A model generated the notes under the pieces. The model saw only the letters and a list, made by a program, of their open reading frames with translations, made no database searches and was not told the DNA's origin. A stretch of 9,803 nucleotides of DNA from Bryobacterales bacterium (GTDB lineage Bacteria; Acidobacteriota; Terriglobia; Bryobacterales; Bryobacteraceae). Shown here piece by piece: positions 162 to 9,803 of the stretch. The DNA is taken from assembly GCA_003132865.1 (NCBI GenBank), contig PKYZ01000748.1, positions 9,483-19,285 on the forward strand, in the 5' to 3' direction. Positions within the stretch are counted from its first letter, which is position 1; every line of letters begins with the position of its first letter. Made by a program: the position numbers and the translations under genes.

Positions 162-3100
162 ATGTGTTTCTCGGGTTTGCTACGCCACCGCCTGCCATTT
201 CATTTGAGAGCTTCCGGGATTCTCTCCACAATCAGCCTGGGTTTGTTGACTGCCCAGGTACCTGTTGAACTCGAACAGCGAATCCAGAAGATTCAAAACG
301 CGATTCTTCCGCCCGTCATCACTAAAGGAAAGCCACCGGCTACCACCAAACTCGCTGATCGAATGGCGGCGCTACACGTTCCCGGTGTAAGTGTCGCCGT
401 AATCCATGACGGAAAAATCGAATGGGCTCGCGGGTTCGGAGTAACCCGTGTCGGGGGGCCGGCGGTGACTCCGGATACGTTGTTCCAGGCGGCATCGATC
501 AGCAAGCCCGTAACGGCTGTTGCCGTTTTGCGCCGGGCAGAATCGGGAAAGCTGAATCTCGATGCGGACGTGAATCAGTATTTGAAAACGTGGAAAGTGC
601 CGGCCAACACATTTACCGAAAGGACAAAGGTCACGCTCCGCGAACTGCTCACTCACACGGCTGGGATGACGGTGCACGGCTTCCCTGGTTACGCTTTCGA
701 CTCCGCGCTGCCGACTCTGGTGCAGGTGCTGAATGGGGAGAAGCCGGCGAACACTCCTGCAATCCTCGTCGACACGATACCGGGAACCAATTGGCGCTAT
801 TCCGGAGGCGGGTTTGTGGTCACGCAACTCCTTCTTGAGGATGTGACCGGCCAGCCATTCCCCAAGCTGATGCATGACATCGTTCTCGGGCCTATGGGGA
901 TGACTCGCAGCACGTACGAGCAGCCTCTGCCCCAGAGTCGGATGGCCGAAGCGGCGATGCCCTATCGGCAGGATGGCCAGGCGGTCCCAGGCGGTCCGCA
1001 CGTTTACCCGGAAATGGCGCCTGCCGGCCTTTGGACAACTCCTTCCGACCTCGCACGGTACGCGATGGAGGTTCAGAAAGCCCTTGCAGGGAAATCTGGT
1101 GCGGTGCTTTCAGCAGCGATGGCGCGGGAGATGTTGAAGCCGGGAATGAATGGCTGGGGACTCGGAGTTGGAACTGGCGGCAGTGCCGAGCATCCGTACT
1201 TCACGCATGGCGGGGCCAACGAGGGCTTTAAGTGCAACCTTGTGGCCTATAACAACGGTGACGGCGCGGTGATCATGACCAACGGTGATTCCGGCGGGGC
1301 TTTGGCGACGGAGATTCTGGGTACCATCGCATATGAGTACAAGTGGCCCGACTTCGCGCCCCGCGAGATAGCTGAATGGAAAGGCACCGTAGATCAAAAG
1401 GTGCTGGCGCGTTACGTCGGGACGTATGAATTAATGGCTGGCGCTGACATGCTGATCACGTTGGAAGGAACTCAGCTCTCGGAGAAGCTGGGCGAGCAGC
1501 CGACGTTCCCGATTTTTCCGGAATCGGAGACGATGTTCTTCCTGAAGGTGGTGGACGCGCAAATCGAGTTCGTGAAGGATGCCAGCGGCGCGGTGACGGC
1601 ATTGGTTTTGCATCAGGGCGGGCGCGACCAGAAGGCGCCGCGGATCAGCGATAAAGCGGAGGCATCCGGTCCACTGCCCAATTCGCCGCAGACGGAGGCT
1701 CGCTCCCAGGCACGCGTCCAATTAAACAAGGGCGTCCAAGCGTTTAAGAGCGCGCTGTATCCCGCGGCGGTGGAGTGCTTCAAGACAGCCGTCGAGCTAG
1801 ATCCGACCTTGGATACGGCGCAATTATATCTGGCGTTTGCCTACATGCAGCAATACATTCCAGGCGCGGAATCGCCGGAGAACATGCAGATGGCCACGGC
1901 GGCCTACGATCAGTTTCAGAAGGTCCTGGCCCAGGACCCCAAGAACGAGTTGGCCGTCGCCTCCATCGCCTCGCTGCTGTTTAACGAGAAGAAACTGGAC
2001 GACGCCAACGAGTGGAACCTGAAGCTGATTTCCCTCAACCCGAAATCCAAGGAAGCCTATTATACGCTGGGCGTAATTGCCTGGACCAAGGCGTTCGTTT
2101 CGGATGGGGAGGCCAGGGCCAAACTGGGAATGAAGCCGGAAGATCCGGGCCCGCTGAAGGACAAGAAGGTGCGCACGGAGGTGGCCGCGAAGAACGGGCC
2201 TATTGTCGACGCGGGCATTAAGTACCTCGACAGATCCCTGCAGATCGATCCCGAGTACGATGACGCCATGGCGTACGAGAATCTCCTCTACCGCCAGAAG
2301 GCCGATCTGGAAGATTCACCGGAAGCTTACAGGGCAGACATAGAGGCTGCTGACAACTTCTTCGCAAGGACCCTAGAAACCAGGAAGGTTAAGGCCGAAC
2401 GGAACGCCCAGCCGAATACGCAAGTTGGTGCGTCGTCACCAACGTGCGTGGAGGAAGCAACTGCCCGTTCACCAAATGTCGCCACGCAAACTGTTGATAT
2501 CCGCATCACCAATCAGCGGTCGAACGCATCGAAAATCTATTGGCTGAACCAACAAGGGCAACGAGTGTTCTATATGACGTTAGATAGCGGGGCTTTCTAC
2601 ACGCAGCCAACGTATTCCGAGCATCCTTGGGTTGCGACGGACAACGATGGGCACTGTACGATGTTCTTCGTAGCGACAACCGCACCACATCAGGAAGTTA
2701 CGATCCGGTCGCCGGACGGAAAGATTGAGGGCTTGCTGTTAGGCCAGCCAGCGACGACATCCCGCATACGCGTAGAAGCGAATGTTCAGGCCCCAAACTT
2801 GATCAGAAAGTCACACCCATATACCAAATTTGGACCCGATCGGTGGCCGAAGGATGAGCTGAATCACTATATAGCGATGCAAAATGGATTCGATTCAGAG
2901 GCCAGAAAGCGTATCGAGCCTGAAAGATCAGCAGTAGCTTCGAAGGCCATGATCGCGGGGACTTCGGAACCGCTCGCTATCCACGCAGGGCTAGACGTTC
3001 TAAGGCACGGAGGCAATGCTGCCGATGCTGCCCTGACGACCTCACTGGCGCAGATCGCCCTCACCGCTGGCGCCGCCGTAAGCTACGCCGGGATCATGAC

Positions 3101-4532
3101 GGTCGTGTACTACGATGCTGCGACGGGCAAGGTGCACACGCTCAATGCAAGCTACAACACCGTCCAAAACGAAAAGGACCCGCTCAGCATTCCGGGAATT
3201 GGAGAACACAGCGGCCGGACAGTTCTGGTTCCTGGCTACATGGCCGGCGTGCAGGCATTGCACGATCGCTTCGGCCGGCTGCCCTTTTCCATGCTGTTCG
3301 GCCCCGCCATATGGATCGCAGAGAATGGCGTCGTGGTGAGCCCCACCGTGAACGCGTGGATCTCCTCGCAAAAAACATTCGTCACTCGCCTACCGGAAAC
3401 GAAGCGCATCTTCACTAAGCCGGACGGGGAGCTTTACAAAACAGGCGATCTTTTCCGCCAACTGGAATTGGCCGCAACCCTTAAGAAGATCGCCGCTCAG
3501 GGTTCCACCTATATTTACAAAGGGGAGTGGGCACATCATTTCGTTGACATCGCCCAGCGCGAAGGCGGGAAAATTACGCTCGAAGACCTAGCCGCCTATC
3601 GCCCCTTGTGGACCGAGCCTCTCCAGGCCTCTTATGCGGATTACCAGGTGGTACTATTGGGTCCGCCGAACACCGGCGGATTCATAACCCTCGGAGGACT
3701 CGGGCTAGCGGAGGTCGCAGGTCTCAAGAAATCTGACCATTACACAACCTCCGCGGAGGCTCTCTATAACCTGATCCAGATCGAGAGAACCACCCAAGCG
3801 TTTGCCAGTGCGTCCCCCAGCACACGCCAGGAATGGTTCCCCGAAGTGGAGCCGTCGCTGGAATCGCTCCTAACCCGCAAGGCTGCCGAACGCTTCTGGG
3901 CTGGCATCCAGCGCAAAATGGTACCACCACCGGCAGAAGATCCCAGCCCCTATCACTCGGCCGGCATCGTGGCCGTCGATGAACAGGGCAATGTCGCATG
4001 CATTCTCCATTCCATCAACGGAATTCTGTGGGGGGCGACAGGTATCTTCGTTGACGGAATCTCCATTCCGGACTCCGCCGTCTTTCAACAGCATCCGATC
4101 CTTGATGCGGGACCCGGTATGCGCCTACCCGAGTCAACCAACCCCTTGATCGTTCTGAAAGGGGGAAAGCCTGTGCTTGCCTCGGTCGCGATCGGCTCGG
4201 GATTGCACAACGTCACTCTTGAGAACCTCATCAATATCCTAGACTTTGGCATGGACCCCCAGACCGCCGTAAACCAGCCAAACACGCAAGGGCCATTCCG
4301 CGGGGTGATGGCGAACGCACCCGGTAAACCTGAATATGAAAAGGAAGCGATCGGCCAGGGCGAGTTTCCACAGTCCGTGATCGATGGCGTGGTGGCTCGG
4401 GGCCAAGCCATCAAGCTCGTCCATAAGTACGCGCAACCCGGTTATTGGATTGGAATCCAAGTCGATCTCCTGACTCACAAGCTCAGGGGCGCCGGCACAC
4501 CCCTGTTGCCCGCCCTCGTAGAAGGATACTGA
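162..4532 (+). CDS. Composite secreted protein: serine hydrolase, TPR, VHL-type beta domain, GGT-like domain
   Basis: This 1456-residue protein joins several modules. Residues 1-31 look like a Sec-type signal: arginines at 8, 10 and 16, then a hydrophobic stretch about 19-30. Residues about 55-400 are a class C beta-lactamase/esterase-type domain (penicillin-binding fold), with nucleophile motif S112-I-S-K115, a Y213-S-G motif in place of YxN, and H349-G-G in place of KTG. Residues about 404-495 look like the small beta domain that often follows such hydrolases. Residues about 517-740 hold TPR-like helices with repeated LDP/LNP/IDP ends, then a charged linker. Residues about 776-852 match the VHL beta domain. 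Residues about 922-1453 are gamma-glutamyltransferase-like. Each hydrolase half is near normal length alone, so this is a fusion. The frame is unbroken across all joins. The first domain is probably a peptidase, esterase or beta-lactamase-like enzyme; its substrate cannot be told. The start is set by AAGGAG at 147-152. Confidence 0.9.
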   Translation: MCFSGLLRHRLPFHLRASGILSTISLGLLTAQVPVELEQRIQKIQNAILPPVITKGKPPATTKLADRMAALHVPGVSVAVIHDGKIEWARGFGVTRVGGPAVTPDTLFQAASISKPVTAVAVLRRAESGKLNLDADVNQYLKTWKVPANTFTERTKVTLRELLTHTAGMTVHGFPGYAFDSALPTLVQVLNGEKPANTPAILVDTIPGTNWRYSGGGFVVTQLLLEDVTGQPFPKLMHDIVLGPMGMTRSTYEQPLPQSRMAEAAMPYRQDGQAVPGGPHVYPEMAPAGLWTTPSDLARYAMEVQKALAGKSGAVLSAAMAREMLKPGMNGWGLGVGTGGSAEHPYFTHGGANEGFKCNLVAYNNGDGAVIMTNGDSGGALATEILGTIAYEYKWPDFAPREIAEWKGTVDQKVLARYVGTYELMAGADMLITLEGTQLSEKLGEQPTFPIFPESETMFFLKVVDAQIEFVKDASGAVTALVLHQGGRDQKAPRISDKAEASGPLPNSPQTEARSQARVQLNKGVQAFKSALYPAAVECFKTAVELDPTLDTAQLYLAFAYMQQYIPGAESPENMQMATAAYDQFQKVLAQDPKNELAVASIASLLFNEKKLDDANEWNLKLISLNPKSKEAYYTLGVIAWTKAFVSDGEARAKLGMKPEDPGPLKDKKVRTEVAAKNGPIVDAGIKYLDRSLQIDPEYDDAMAYENLLYRQKADLEDSPEAYRADIEAADNFFARTLETRKVKAERNAQPNTQVGASSPTCVEEATARSPNVATQTVDIRITNQRSNASKIYWLNQQGQRVFYMTLDSGAFYTQPTYSEHPWVATDNDGHCTMFFVATTAPHQEVTIRSPDGKIEGLLLGQPATTSRIRVEANVQAPNLIRKSHPYTKFGPDRWPKDELNHYIAMQNGFDSEARKRIEPERSAVASKAMIAGTSEPLAIHAGLDVLRHGGNAADAALTTSLAQIALTAGAAVSYAGIMTVVYYDAATGKVHTLNASYNTVQNEKDPLSIPGIGEHSGRTVLVPGYMAGVQALHDRFGRLPFSMLFGPAIWIAENGVVVSPTVNAWISSQKTFVTRLPETKRIFTKPDGELYKTGDLFRQLELAATLKKIAAQGSTYIYKGEWAHHFVDIAQREGGKITLEDLAAYRPLWTEPLQASYADYQVVLLGPPNTGGFITLGGLGLAEVAGLKKSDHYTTSAEALYNLIQIERTTQAFASASPSTRQEWFPEVEPSLESLLTRKAAERFWAGIQRKMVPPPAEDPSPYHSAGIVAVDEQGNVACILHSINGILWGATGIFVDGISIPDSAVFQQHPILDAGPGMRLPESTNPLIVLKGGKPVLASVAIGSGLHNVTLENLINILDFGMDPQTAVNQPNTQGPFRGVMANAPGKPEYEKEAIGQGEFPQSVIDGVVARGQAIKLVHKYAQPGYWIGIQVDLLTHKLRGAGTPLLPALVEGY
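2484..2711 (+). other. VHL (von Hippel-Lindau) beta-type domain within the composite protein
   Basis: Residues about 775-850 resemble the beta domain of the VHL tumour suppressor, which in animals binds hydroxyproline in HIF-alpha. Recalled human VHL residues 88-117 align without gaps at a constant offset of 706. WLNxxG (W794 to G799) matches W88 to G93, Y804 matches Y98, T806-L807 match T100-L101, G810 matches G104, T817 replaces S111, Y818 matches Y112, H821 matches H115 and W823 matches W117. The human pocket for hydroxyproline is W88, Y98, S111, H115 and W117, so four of five are identical and the fifth is Ser to Thr. The VHL alpha domain that binds elongin C is absent; TPR helices lie before it and the GGT-like domain after. 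A binding role is inferred. Bacterial VHL-box proteins are known in the family, but their function is poorly defined. Confidence 0.8.
2919..4529 (+). other. Gamma-glutamyltransferase-like Ntn-hydrolase domain within the composite protein
   Basis: Residues about 920-1456 keep the GGT outline: a G950-G-N-A-A-D-A-A motif (GGNAxDAA), VPGYMAG at 1023-1029, and the small-subunit core VDxxGN at 1272-1277. Aligned with E. coli GGT, nucleophile T391 falls on S1266, T409 on S1284 and N411 on N1286. A Ser nucleophile is chemically possible in Ntn hydrolases, and self-cleavage between H1265 and S1266 (codon 3957-3959) is the inferred processing site. The arginine that binds the glutamate carboxylate (E. 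coli R114) is not found in the matching segment near 995-999. The GSPGG oxyanion motif reads IGSGLH at 1344-1349. It is therefore a divergent member; true gamma-glutamyl activity is doubtful, and an acylase or other amidase is possible. Confidence 0.78.
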
Positions 4533-5210: not shown

Positions 5211-5249
5211 GCAAATTTGCGATAGCCTTTTGTACATGTCCGGCTATCG
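5211..5249 (+). promoter_or_regulatory. Abutting dyads at the oxidoreductase start, with the ATG in a hairpin loop
   Basis: GCAAATTTGC at 5211-5220 is a perfect 10-base palindrome 15 bases before the ATG at 5236. It is followed by a perfect 8-base stem, CGATAGCC (5220-5227) with GGCTATCG (5242-5249), whose 14-base loop carries the ATG. No Shine-Dalgarno match is visible before the start. The arrangement suggests an operator, a translational control hairpin, or start-codon display to the ribosome without a ribosome binding site. The structure is seen; the role is inferred. Confidence 0.42.
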
Positions 5250-6825
5250 ATTCTCAAGACGCCACTTCTTCTATGGCAGCCTGCTGGCGGGCGCCATTCC
5301 CGCGGGCGGATTCGGCAGCACCCCGTCTCTGCGCGCCTTAGGGTACAAATCACCGAACGAGAAGCTGAACCTGGCAGCCATCGGAGCGGGCGGGCAGCCA
5401 GCGGCCGACCTGAAAGAGGCGCAGGCCGGTGTAGAGAACGTAGTGGCGCTGGCGGATGTTGACTGGGTGCGCGGCCACGAATCTTTCGAGCGCTTCCCCA
5501 ACGCGGCCCGCTACAAGGATTTCCGCCAGATGCTGGACAAGCAAGGAAAGGAAATCGACGCGGTCGTCGTCGGCACGCCGGACCACAACCACGCCTACTG
5601 CGCGCTCACCTGCATGCAGGCCGGAAAGCACGTGTACGTTGAAAAGCCGCTTACCCGCACTGCCGGCGAAGCGCGCCTCCTGTGGCAAGCCGCTCGGAAA
5701 TACAACGTCGCTACGCAGATGGGGAATCAAGGCTATTCGCACGACGCTACCCGTGTGGCTTGCGAAATCATTTGGTCCGGCGAAATCGGCGAGGTGCGCG
5801 AAGTCCACGCCTGGACCGGCCGCCCGATTTGGCCGCAGGAGATGACCAGAATCCCGCCGCCCACTCCGGTTCCGGCAACGCTCGATTGGGACCTGTGGCT
5901 GGGCGTCGCCGCTGCGCGTCCGTTCACTGTTGGCGATGAGGATTACCAGTCGTTTGTGGCCGCGCGCGAAGCTCGCAACCGGCCGCCCGGCATGCCCCAG
6001 GGATTCCGTTACCCCGACCGGGATACGTTCAAATTCTATCTGCCCTTCAACTGGCGCGGCTTCTACGATTTCGGCAGCAGCCTGATTGGCGATTGGGGCG
6101 TTCACATTCTAGGTCCGGCGAACTGGGCCCTGCAACTCGATCCGGAGTACCTGACGAGCATCGAGTGTACTAAGAAAGACTCGCTGCCGGAATTCACCTT
6201 CCCCGATGAGTTGATTCTCAAATACGAATTTGCGGCGCGGCCCGGCATGCCGCCCGTGACGGTGTACTGGTATCATCACGGCGGTGGCGGCGACGCTTAC
6301 ACGCCTCCCGGCATGACGGTGGAAGACGCGCGCAAGATCCCCGGCCAAGGTCCACAGGTGGGACCGGCAGCCGGACAGGGCGGCTTCAGACCCGGTTCGG
6401 GCGGACGTCCGGGGGCTGGCGCGCGTCCTCCAGTGGGCAGCGGCTACAATTGCATTTTCGCCGGCTCGAAAGGCTACCTCGGAACCAGCGGGCGTGGCGA
6501 AGGCGTCGGTCTTCTACCCGGATCGCGATGGGCCGAATACAAACTGCCCGAACCGTATCTCCAGCGTTCGCCCGGCGCCAGCACCGGCTCCAATCACGCC
6601 GCGCACGCGCGCGACTGGATCCGCGCCTGCAAGGGCGGAGCTCCCGCCTGCTCCAACTTCAACATCGCCGCGCGCTACACGGAATGGCTGGTGGCGGGCT
6701 CGGCGGCAGTACATTATGATGGCAAGCTACTTTGGGATCAGGAGAAGGGCGAATTCTCCAGCAACCCCGGCGCGAACCGTTGGGTGAAGCCCACATACCG
6801 CAAGGGTTGGGAGATCCAGCTATAG
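5236..6825 (+). CDS. Gfo/Idh/MocA family oxidoreductase with Tat signal
   Basis: NAD(P)-dependent dehydrogenase family that oxidises or reduces sugar-type hydroxyls; the product is 529 aa. Numbering is from the ATG at 5236. Residues 6-11 (FSRRHFF) form a twin-arginine signal followed by a short hydrophobic run, so export of the folded enzyme with its cofactor is expected, as in Zymomonas glucose-fructose oxidoreductase. The Rossmann nucleotide motif GAGG is at about 50-53. The catalytic EKP is at 136-138. A DWGVH segment at 286-290 supplies the family's Asp and His. A Gly/Pro-rich low-complexity stretch at about 369-403 interrupts the C-terminal sheet domain. An in-frame TTG at 5230 could add two residues; the ATG was preferred because neither has a ribosome binding site. 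The next gene starts 32 bases downstream, so an operon is likely. The substrate cannot be told. Confidence 0.9.
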   Translation: MSGYRFSRRHFFYGSLLAGAIPAGGFGSTPSLRALGYKSPNEKLNLAAIGAGGQPAADLKEAQAGVENVVALADVDWVRGHESFERFPNAARYKDFRQMLDKQGKEIDAVVVGTPDHNHAYCALTCMQAGKHVYVEKPLTRTAGEARLLWQAARKYNVATQMGNQGYSHDATRVACEIIWSGEIGEVREVHAWTGRPIWPQEMTRIPPPTPVPATLDWDLWLGVAAARPFTVGDEDYQSFVAAREARNRPPGMPQGFRYPDRDTFKFYLPFNWRGFYDFGSSLIGDWGVHILGPANWALQLDPEYLTSIECTKKDSLPEFTFPDELILKYEFAARPGMPPVTVYWYHHGGGGDAYTPPGMTVEDARKIPGQGPQVGPAAGQGGFRPGSGGRPGAGARPPVGSGYNCIFAGSKGYLGTSGRGEGVGLLPGSRWAEYKLPEPYLQRSPGASTGSNHAAHARDWIRACKGGAPACSNFNIAARYTEWLVAGSAAVHYDGKLLWDQEKGEFSSNPGANRWVKPTYRKGWEIQL

Positions 6826-6850: not shown

Positions 6851-6857
6851 TTACAAA

Positions 6858-7826
6858 ATGATGGGAATTAGTCGCCGGCGGTTCTTGACTGGAACAGCTT
6901 CGCTCGCTGTGGCGGGCGCTGGCCTGCCCAAAATCGGGTGGGGCGATCCCTTGGGACTGCCGATCGGAATTCAGCTATACACTGTGGGCGCGGATTTGCA
7001 AAAGGATGCCCCAGCCACAATCAAGCAGATTGCGCGAATTGGATATACGGAAGTCGAGACCGCGGGGTTCGGGTCGGCAGGGAGTGCGGCAGCGCTTCGC
7101 AAGCTGCTGGACGATAACGCCATCAGGTGCCCCAGCGCGCACCTCAGCTTCGAGCTCAAGAATCTCAACAAGGCCTTCGACGACGCACACGCGCTCGGCT
7201 GCGCTTATGCCACCGCTTCCGTGCCGCGCTTGCTCCTCTCCCAAATGCCTTCGTTTGACGCCTCCGTCCCGGCTGCTGAACGCGCGAAAATGATGCAGGA
7301 GGTGAGGAAGACGCTACGCGCGCCGTTATTGTCTGACGACCTGAAGAGATTGATCGACTTGATGAACCAGGTCGGCGCGGCCGCAAAACAGCAAGGGCTG
7401 ATGTTTGCTGCGCACAATCATACTTTTGAGTTCGAGAAAGTAGACGACCGGCCCGCGATCTTCTCCATCATCGAGAAGACGGATCCGAACAACATCAAAT
7501 TCGAGATCGACTGCGGATGGGCAGAGATAGCGGGTTTCCACCCGGGCGACCTCGCGCAGGCTTATCCTGGCCGCATCCGGATGCTTCATATCAAGGACTT
7601 TCTCGCGTTCGAGAAAGGAGCCGCGCCTGGAAGCCCGGCGGGGCCGAAGGGTGCTGAGATCGGCGCGGGTGTGATCGACTATAAGAAAATCTTCGCCGAC
7701 ATGCAGGGCAAAGGAGTGGAACACATCTTCGTCGAGCAGGAAGGGCCTTATTCCCGCATGCCGGCCATCCAGGCAGCCGAGGTGGATTACAAGTTTCTGC
7801 ACTCGCTGAAAAACGCATTGGAGTGA
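6858..7826 (+). CDS. Sugar phosphate isomerase/epimerase-like TIM-barrel protein with Tat signal
   Basis: A 322-residue member of the xylose isomerase-like/AP endonuclease 2 TIM-barrel family, which uses a bound divalent metal to isomerise, epimerise or cleave sugar derivatives. A Tat signal is clear: ISRRRFLTG at 4-12 followed by an alanine-rich hydrophobic run to about 24. Barrel motifs follow in order: IGIQLYTV at 36-43, HNHTFEFE at 186-193, DCGW at 218-221, HIKD at 244-247 and VEQEG at 292-296. D218, H244 and E293 are likely metal ligands. The stop of the oxidoreductase lies 32 bases before the ATG, so both genes are probably cotranscribed and act in the same exported pathway. Gfo/Idh/MocA and TIM-barrel pairs are known in keto-sugar and C-glycoside metabolism, but assigning that here is inference. 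The hydrophilic C-terminus ends normally. Confidence 0.9.
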   Translation: MMGISRRRFLTGTASLAVAGAGLPKIGWGDPLGLPIGIQLYTVGADLQKDAPATIKQIARIGYTEVETAGFGSAGSAAALRKLLDDNAIRCPSAHLSFELKNLNKAFDDAHALGCAYATASVPRLLLSQMPSFDASVPAAERAKMMQEVRKTLRAPLLSDDLKRLIDLMNQVGAAAKQQGLMFAAHNHTFEFEKVDDRPAIFSIIEKTDPNNIKFEIDCGWAEIAGFHPGDLAQAYPGRIRMLHIKDFLAFEKGAAPGSPAGPKGAEIGAGVIDYKKIFADMQGKGVEHIFVEQEGPYSRMPAIQAAEVDYKFLHSLKNALE

Positions 7827-8287: not shown

Positions 8288-9803
8288 CTACGGCCGTATC
8301 AGCGGCGGGAAGAGTTGCAGCGCCGGCGCTTGCGGATTCGGCTGGTATTCGAGGATCGCGCCCTCTTTGCGCAGCGTGGCCATTAGCGCGGAAACGTCGA
8401 TATCCTGTACCGCCTTCCCACTCTCCACGGCCAGTCGCGCCGCCACGCCCGCCGCGTGCCCCAGGATCATGTACTGCGGCTCCATGCGGATCGAGGAATA
8501 CGCCACGTGGCTTGCCGAAAACGCCACTGGCACAAGCAAATTCTCCGCCTCCAACCGTTTCGGCAGCATCACGCGGAACGGGATCTGATACGGCTGCACC
8601 GGAACCTGCATATCGCCCTCGTTGCGTACGTTCCCGTCGGGCCCCACGATGCGCTCCACGTTGTGCGAATCGCTGTTGTAAGAGCCCATGCCGATGGCGT
8701 CCGGCTTGGTCCAATCCCTCTGCAGATCCTTCTGGGTCATCACGTACTCACCAACCATCCGCCGCGCTTCGCGGATGTACAACGGGTGCGGCCAATTCTC
8801 CGTGTCCGTGAATTCGTCCTTCGCCAAGCCCCACCGGTTCATCTCCTGCCGCAGGCTCTCCGGAACCCGTGGATCATTCGCCAGGAAATAGAAGAAGCCG
8901 GCCTGGTAGTCTTTGTGCGCCTGCCAGATCCTCTGCCGTTCGGCGTAGCTCGCGTCGGGGTAATTCCAGCTCCCGCCGATATAGTCCGTCGAAAACGCCC
9001 CGTTGTTGTTGATGTCCGTCTTTCCATTTGGAATGCGGCTCAGCGTCATTAGCGTGTCGAGCGCCGGAACGCGGCCCTCCGCCTGCGTCCGCGCGCGGAT
9101 CAGCCGCGCTAGAAGCTCGTAACGCCCTGCGTCGTATCCCACCGGCTTGGCGAATGCCACGCGGTTCGCCGCCACGTCGGTGAGGCACATTCGGTAGTTG
9201 TATGCTTGCACGGCTTTATCCGCCGATCCCGCCGCCGGCAGCGTTCGTGCCGAAATCTCCGGCAGCAGCTTGCCCGCAGCGTCATAGGCCGAAACGTTAA
9301 CCAGGAATTGATGGTATGGCGTTTGCTCTCGCACGCCCGCCAGCGACTCCCCGTACTGCGACGCCGCCTCGCGCCCGAACGTGTAGCTCACGCCCGCCTG
9401 CGCCATCAGGTCGCCTTCATACGTGCTGTCGATGAACACCATGGCCGTGAACTGGTCGCCCGCTTCGGTCGCAATCGCCGTCACACGCGCGCCCTGTTTG
9501 CGCACGCCGTTCTTCTCCACCAGGCGCTCATGCTCGAACAGCGCAACTCCCGCCTCTCTCACCATCCTGCGGAAAATCTGTTCCGCCACGTGCGGCTCCG
9601 GCAGCCACGCCACGTCCTGTCCGTAAAGCGGCATCTGGTAATGCCGCCCCACGCGATAGTAAAACTCCAGCGCGCAGCCGCCGATCACCTCCTTCTTTCC
9701 GTAATCGGTCCAGCCCAGGCCGCCCGATACCATCCCGCCCAAATGCACTCCCGGCTCGACCAACGCCGTCTTCTTCCCCTCCCGCGTCGCCGCCACCGCT
9801 GCG
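8288..9803 (-). CDS. FAD-dependent oxidoreductase (FAD_oxidored family), N-terminus off the window
   Basis: The frame runs from the right edge to a TAG at 8288-8290. It begins in AAVAATREGKKTALVEP, the helix and second strand of a Rossmann fold, so the GxGxxG motif and roughly 20-40 residues lie outside. The in-frame GTG at 9794-9796 is not the true start. Counting from that GTG, LGGMVSGGLGWTD at 19-31, IDSTYEGDL at 122-130 and SIRMEPQYMILGHAAG at 435-450 are typical of the FAD_oxidored flavoprotein family, often labelled xanthan lyase-like or exported. The C-terminal flavin motif is intact. Family members are abundant in Acidobacteriota and Planctomycetes and are linked to polysaccharide or sugar oxidation, but the substrate is unknown. 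It converges on the TIM-barrel gene. Confidence 0.88.
   Translation of the reverse strand, partial: AAVAATREGKKTALVEPGVHLGGMVSGGLGWTDYGKKEVIGGCALEFYYRVGRHYQMPLYGQDVAWLPEPHVAEQIFRRMVREAGVALFEHERLVEKNGVRKQGARVTAIATEAGDQFTAMVFIDSTYEGDLMAQAGVSYTFGREAASQYGESLAGVREQTPYHQFLVNVSAYDAAGKLLPEISARTLPAAGSADKAVQAYNYRMCLTDVAANRVAFAKPVGYDAGRYELLARLIRARTQAEGRVPALDTLMTLSRIPNGKTDINNNGAFSTDYIGGSWNYPDASYAERQRIWQAHKDYQAGFFYFLANDPRVPESLRQEMNRWGLAKDEFTDTENWPHPLYIREARRMVGEYVMTQKDLQRDWTKPDAIGMGSYNSDSHNVERIVGPDGNVRNEGDMQVPVQPYQIPFRVMLPKRLEAENLLVPVAFSASHVAYSSIRMEPQYMILGHAAGVAARLAVESGKAVQDIDVSALMATLRKEGAILEYQPNPQAPALQLFPPLIRP

Follow-up and report, generated by a model that had tools for sequence, protein, structure and literature searches.

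In human VHL, hydroxyproline is held in a small site of the beta domain, where its 4-hydroxyl bonds to Ser111 and His115, its carbonyl to Tyr98 and its NH to the backbone carbonyl of His110, Trp88 and Trp117 being part of the site as well; VH032 and VH298 are VHL ligands that mimic hydroxyproline (available part of PMC9528729). Ile109 is also counted with the pocket (excerpt of PMC6650433). A bacterial VHL domain has already been published (PMC9002001, as far as the excerpt goes), and the Pfam VHL model covers bacterial members. Here, we describe a VHL beta domain encoded in a 9,803-nucleotide stretch of DNA from a Bryobacterales bacterium of the Acidobacteriota (contig PKYZ01000748.1, positions 9,483 to 19,285), hereafter called the window. 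The domain lies in the 1456-aa product of an open reading frame (ORF) at 162-4532 on the + strand, and we regard it as almost certainly a genuine member of the VHL beta-domain family.

A preliminary description of this DNA, made from the sequence alone, had placed the domain at 2484-2711 and aligned it without gaps, over residues 794-823, to human VHL 88-117. This interval does correspond to residues 775-850 of the ORF, and the alignment holds, with 11 identities in 30 positions; among 20,000 shuffled versions of the domain, one reached this number at any offset. The ungapped register spans VHL N78 to D121, with one additional window residue upstream of it. All five positions of the hydroxyproline pocket are retained as claimed: W794 (2541-2543) corresponds to W88, Y804 (2571-2573) to Y98, T817 (2610-2612) to S111, a conservative change, H821 (2622-2624) to H115, and W823 (2628-2630) to W117, all on the + strand. 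The extent of the domain needs a small correction, since the pocket stretch is confirmed but the interval given is slightly short: the actual domain covers approximately residues 762-850 (2445-2711, +), so that it also includes the first strand, with RS at VHL 64-65, together with a pair of cysteines, Cys762 and Cys832.

Considered in isolation, 11/30 identity is only suggestive, and a chance resemblance to a protein unrelated to VHL has two observations in its favor. In the profile check that the preliminary description had put forward, the Pfam VHL score of the window (12.1 bits for the whole protein; 16.9 bits, E 0.0065, for a 128-aa fragment) is under the curated cut-off of 21, and VHL was not among the phmmer matches of the same 128-aa fragment against the PDB. 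The link to VHL becomes firm, however, through relatives of the domain: tblastn against 72,556 plasmid records recovered two small proteins from the cyanobacteria Nostoc and Calothrix (E 4e-8 and 6e-8, respectively), both of which exceed the Pfam VHL cut-off, with 31.3 and 37.6 bits. A profile built from 20 bacterial sequences, including the window (profile A5), matches only VHL in the PDB, as all 24 distinct sequences at E<=1 are VHL (best 3.3e-8), and the predicted fold of the domain is a VHL-type beta-sandwich. Intermediates, profile and predicted fold thus agree on VHL, and a chance match, to which we give practically no weight, was rejected on this basis. The initial observation and its structural interpretation are correct, and the observation is stronger than had been claimed. 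The elongin-binding alpha domain is indeed absent: the protein matches no such family at E<=1 in Pfam (where the VHL alpha domain has its own separate model), and what follows the beta domain is a linker and a gamma-glutamyltranspeptidase-like domain.

Every side chain of the human site as described in PMC9528729 is present in the window, with Thr for Ser, except that of His110, whose backbone is used. We propose, at a probability of roughly 0.4, that the domain is a hydroxyproline reader acting as a binding module within a putatively exported multi-domain hydrolase. Its pocket would recognize 4-hydroxyproline, or a residue much like it, within a peptide or protein outside the cytoplasm, the 4-hydroxyl being H-bonded by T817 and H821, the carbonyl by Y804, and the ring lined by W794 and W823; the bound substrate would thereby be anchored to the adjoining serine-hydrolase and gamma-glutamyltranspeptidase-like domains, which may act nearby. 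The protein had been described as secreted, and its N-terminus (approximately residues 1-32; 162-257, +) does look signal-like by eye, with a basic stretch followed by the hydrophobic ASGILSTISLGLLTA. The cysteine pair, which is common in the bacterial family, also fits an extracytoplasmic location: the column of Cys762 (2445-2447, +) is Cys in 16/16 pattern-found domains (see below) with a residue there, that of Cys832 (2655-2657, +) in 13/13 non-seed hits of the pocket-blind search (see below) with a residue there, and the two probably form a disulfide.

Other bacterial VHL domains are widespread but sparse. No loci were found in a first scan of the genome collection with narrow patterns, nor in viral contigs, and a third protein search gave P0007 only. 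A second scan of the genome collection, with patterns from Nostoc, Calothrix and the window, identified 22 loci, the already known Calothrix plasmid included, which belong to Cyanobacteriota, Pseudomonadota (e.g., Chelativorans and Limnohabitans), Myxococcota (Enhygromyxa) and Actinomycetota (Streptomyces), phyla that we assigned presumptively from the organism names. A VHL match over the Pfam cut-off is present in 15 of the 17 genomes behind these loci, versus 0/14 control genomes. Around five of the genomes, in groups that include the centre genome and none of which is centred on Acidobacteriota, the cut-off is exceeded in 7/289 genomes for the class of G004 (Chelativorans), 8/146 for the phylum of G003 (a cyanobacterium), 14/140 for the phylum of G005 (Enhygromyxa), 3/296 for the phylum of G010 (Streptomyces) and 1/274 for the class of G006 (Limnohabitans); two of the hits in these counts, L049 and L056, contain no VHL-like frame at E<=0.1 in a six-frame search with the bacterial profile.

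Conservation was counted in 26 profile-found domains, i.e., the 28 survey loci (L037-L064) after removal of L049 and L056, and in 21 of the 22 pattern-found loci, L007 being removed as a near copy of L006. These sets, and the pocket-blind set introduced below, contain near duplicates (L041/L042 and L038/L043; pocket-blind L118/L119, with L121 near a seed), and the counts are not independent events. W88, H115, W117 and N78 are invariant in the profile-found domains, and when 71 columns are ranked H115 is 3rd, Y98 6th (Y in 22/26) and S/T111 9th (T or S in 24/26). All five pocket residues are kept in 22/26 profile-found domains and in 19 of the 20 pattern-found domains that extend over these positions. 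Because the profile and the patterns themselves contain the pocket residues, ascertainment was tested, by masking and by a search with a new profile blind to the five pocket columns. Each of the 12 domains that are still found after the pocket is masked has the full five residues. The pocket-blind search matched 10/339 and 7/357 genomes, with a total of 20 domains, of which 15 have a full pocket (9/14 without the seeds); in the 14 non-seed domains, the pocket columns rank 2, 3, 5, 12 and 16 of 78, S/T111 being 2nd and H115 12th. The five residues are thus strongly, although not universally, conserved across bacterial phyla, and the profile match persists without the pocket. That the pocket columns are among the best-kept positions of a very diverse bacterial family would support a hydroxyproline ligand, within what is overall mixed evidence.

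Several findings weigh against such a ligand, and some of them come from the same counts. In four of the 26 profile-found domains, the set of five residues is incomplete. Masking the pocket leaves 12/26 domains at E<=1e-3, whereas masking five different conserved columns leaves 21/26, which means that part of the conservation in the profile-found set is ascertainment. Among the pocket-blind hits, three domains of the cyanobacterium G1308 have R for Y98, N or Y for H115 and, once, Y for W117, and further exceptions have A for Y98 in one case and a Tyr shifted by one residue in another. Around the pocket, N67, R69, P99, R107 and H110 vary in the 26 domains, the side chain of His110 is not kept (P816 in the window), and I109 is not kept either, Gln occupying this position in 21/26 profile-found and 13/21 pattern-found domains (34/47). 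In animals, N67, R69, F91, P99, R107, I109, H110 and Y112 contact the HIF peptide outside the five-residue pocket. Because R69, P99 and R107 are not kept in bacteria and I109 is mostly Gln, any bacterial target would have hydroxyproline, but not the HIF sequence, in common with HIF. The window itself has A at R69, M at P99, Y at R107, Q797 at F91 and Y818 at Y112, and an N in the N67 column, upstream of the gap; across the 26 domains the picture of the flanks is mixed, with Y or F at Y112 and a hydrophobic residue at L101 in 25 each, and F, Y or W at F91 in 17. The Gln at VHL position 109 (Q815 in the window, 2604-2606; Ile in human) distinguishes most bacterial domains at the rim of the hydroxyproline site.

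The pocket-poor domains also bear on another explanation, namely that the five residues are kept mainly for packing of the beta-sandwich or for protein-protein contact, with no small-ring ligand. Other well-kept positions, N78, S65 and G93, are probably structural, and W88 is present in 20/20 pocket-blind domains, including the pocket-poor ones, both of which speak for this explanation. However, the three G1308 domains and L120, in which Y98, H115 or both are replaced, still match the pocket-blind profile, so that these two residues are probably dispensable for the fold, and it is these five side chains that line the ligand site in human VHL (PMC9528729, available part). We consider this explanation unlikely. 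G1308's three VHL-like domains without Y98 and H115 are L108, L112 and L113; the L108 frame contains GFTLVELLVAG, which resembles a type IV pilin-type N-terminus.

The remaining points against a hydroxyproline reader concern gene association. Pfam VHL exceeds the cut-off in 43 genomes (15 behind the loci, 6 more from the G004 class, 7 from the G003 phylum, 13 from the G005 phylum and 2 from the G010 phylum), among which the L049 and L056 genomes are doubtful; co-occurrence was analyzed in 28 of these, and in 24 VHL-lacking genomes of 4.0-7.1 Mb from the listed rows of the G004, G003 and G005 surveys, none of them from the Actinomycetota or the Limnohabitans group. PF13640, a prolyl-4-hydroxylase-type family, is found in 20/28 VHL-bearing versus 13/24 VHL-lacking genomes (p 0.25); if two further Actinomycetota genomes are included, the figures are 20/30 versus 13/24 (p 0.41). 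Eight of the 28 VHL-bearing genomes have no match to it, although an absence says little in some VHL-bearing genomes, which are drafts of small size (1.9 Mb at the lowest). The family is absent from 3/3 VHL-bearing Actinomycetota genomes (G010, G771 and G793). Nor is PF05544, a hydroxyproline-epimerase-type family, enriched over its cut-off (3/28 VHL-bearing versus 3/24 VHL-lacking genomes). The neighborhoods of 18 of the 22 loci, in which 104 of 139 listed ORFs were scanned, three of them (at L009, L025 and L026) being the VHL ORFs themselves, have no recurrent neighbor: among the 25 most frequent of 152 Pfam families, a view in which a 2-oxoglutarate oxygenase matched by a single ORF is not visible, the top families match 3/104 ORFs. 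Nothing in these data points to a dedicated pairing of hydroxylase and reader, which leaves an external source of hydroxyproline, another hydroxylase family or a different ligand as alternatives.

The last of these could take the form of the same fold and pocket binding another ligand, such as a sugar, plain proline or a small ring of another kind, with hydroxyproline specificity arising later, in eukaryotes, and the domain still serving as a binding module of exported or signaling proteins. We hold this for a real possibility, if again short of an even chance. It would account for the missing link to a hydroxylase or to hydroxyproline catabolism and for pocket edges that differ from those of VHL, as S111 is Thr in 40/47 domains (profile-found and pattern-found together) and I109 Gln in 34/47, and the very diverse partners of the domain (kinase, CAP, caspase-like, SH3) suggest a general module. 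On the other hand, the hydroxyl-binding positions S/T111 and H115 are among the best-kept columns (9 and 3 of 71; 2 and 12 of 78), and it is not obvious that binding of plain proline would require them. As to the hydroxyproline ligand of the preliminary description, the evidence is mixed: the pocket positions are well kept, while an association with hydroxylase or epimerase genes is missing and some domains are pocket-poor. The plant or animal targets it had suggested, extensin and collagen, found no direct support in this analysis. A hydroxyproline function is plausible and testable, but unproven. In its broader form, the proposal is that several bacterial phyla carry a hydroxyproline-reader family, made of VHL beta domains recognizing 4-hydroxyproline in exported or signaling contexts (enzymes, kinases, caspase-like and CAP proteins), independent of ubiquitin ligases and sharing ancestry with the hydroxyproline module of animal oxygen sensing; this can only be put forward tentatively.

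The ORF encodes, in order, a beta-lactamase/serine hydrolase domain (residues 64-379; 351-1298; PF00144, E 3.4e-53), DUF3471 (residues 407-484; 1380-1613; PF11954, E 4.6e-12), a TPR region (approximately residues 517-640 by Pfam families; 1710-2081), the VHL beta domain and the gamma-glutamyltranspeptidase-like domain (residues 945-1426; 2994-4439; PF01019, E 5.1e-67, and alignments to solved relatives), all on the + strand. The first contains SISK (112), YSG (213) and HGG (349), which we take to be the motifs of a beta-lactamase-type domain. In the last, Ser1266 (3957-3959) takes the place of the catalytic Thr, presumably the nucleophile of this family, when counted gap-free from the conserved D..GN, in an alignment uncertain by one residue. 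An identical fusion protein is present in 3 contigs (a cluster of 15 member sequences), and P0003 (a cluster of 27 member sequences, 1 contig) has identical Pfam domains and 87% identity over residues 640-885. Similarity to stand-alone TPR proteins extends to approximately residue 747, an end judged by eye from the alignment. This TPR part (1704-2402) is close to stand-alone proteins of about 268 aa, some named Bryobacteraceae, such as the 268-aa P0009 (84% identical, over 61% of a 383-aa query), and similar TPR parts are fused elsewhere, in P0004 (PpiC/SurA), P0005 (trypsin-like) and P0012, as would result from repeated copying of one TPR cassette into different genes. Neighboring genes encode a Gfo/Idh/MocA oxidoreductase (5230-6825, +), a xylose-isomerase-like TIM barrel protein (6855-7826, +) and an FAD-dependent oxidoreductase (8288-9802, -) that extends past the window edge. 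Eukaryotic contamination was set aside, as the adjacent ORFs match families common in bacteria and proteins named Bryobacteraceae are among the matches of the TPR part.

Elsewhere, the partner domains of bacterial VHL domains are SH3_3, Peptidase_C14, Pkinase and CAP by Pfam. P0004 has a PpiC/SurA-TPR partner, its VHL part being under the cut-off, and this single sequence, with a TPR-VHL unit after a PpiC/SurA-like protein, could be an assembly chimera. In Streptomyces typhae, the VHL beta domain is at the C-terminus of a caspase-like protein (L025:3090-5216), and in the actinomycetote genome G771 at the C-terminus of a protein kinase (L095). Visual inspection of L095 showed no apparent membrane segment separating the kinase from VHL, and its frame begins within the kinase profile. 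These kinase and caspase-like fusions may well be cytoplasmic.

Should bacterial VHL domains read hydroxyproline, the module behind animal oxygen sensing would exist in bacteria without ubiquitin, HIF or an alpha domain, and bacteria could recognize a protein modification to which few bacterial studies have been devoted. The idea can be tested directly with hydroxyproline-mimic VHL ligands and peptides on the small domains, natural pocket-poor paralogues serving as controls, and bacterial VHL domains could become affinity reagents for hydroxyproline. Judged by title and opening of the abstract, only PMC9002001 among the articles found in our literature search concerns a bacterial VHL domain; the search returned no report on the VHL pocket across bacteria or on its ligand, and the excerpt of PMC9002001 contains no account of pocket conservation.

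Among known systems, Pseudomonas PPHD, a PHD-like enzyme, hydroxylates a proline of EF-Tu (PMC6235002, excerpt), which makes an endogenous bacterial hydroxyproline ligand conceivable; it differs in that no VHL partner is described in that excerpt, EF-Tu is cytoplasmic, and PF13640 is absent from 8/28 VHL-bearing genomes. Another known case is EMK97_00595 of Litorilituus sediminis, a bacterial protein with a VHL beta domain, called secretory in the part of PMC9002001 available. The Nostoc and Calothrix plasmid proteins also carry a bacterial VHL beta domain like that of the window, and the Nostoc N-terminus is signal-like by eye, but at 120 and 113 aa, respectively, they are small, and neither they nor the Litorilituus protein have, as far as seen, the hydrolase or TPR fusion of the window protein. 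Compared with the human pVHL beta domain (PF01847; PDB 1lm8, 1lqb and 4awj), the window domain lacks the elongin-binding alpha domain, sits in a bacterial enzyme fusion and carries the changes S111T, I109Q, H110P, F91Q, R69A, P99M and R107Y, together with an added Cys pair that, to our knowledge, human VHL does not have.
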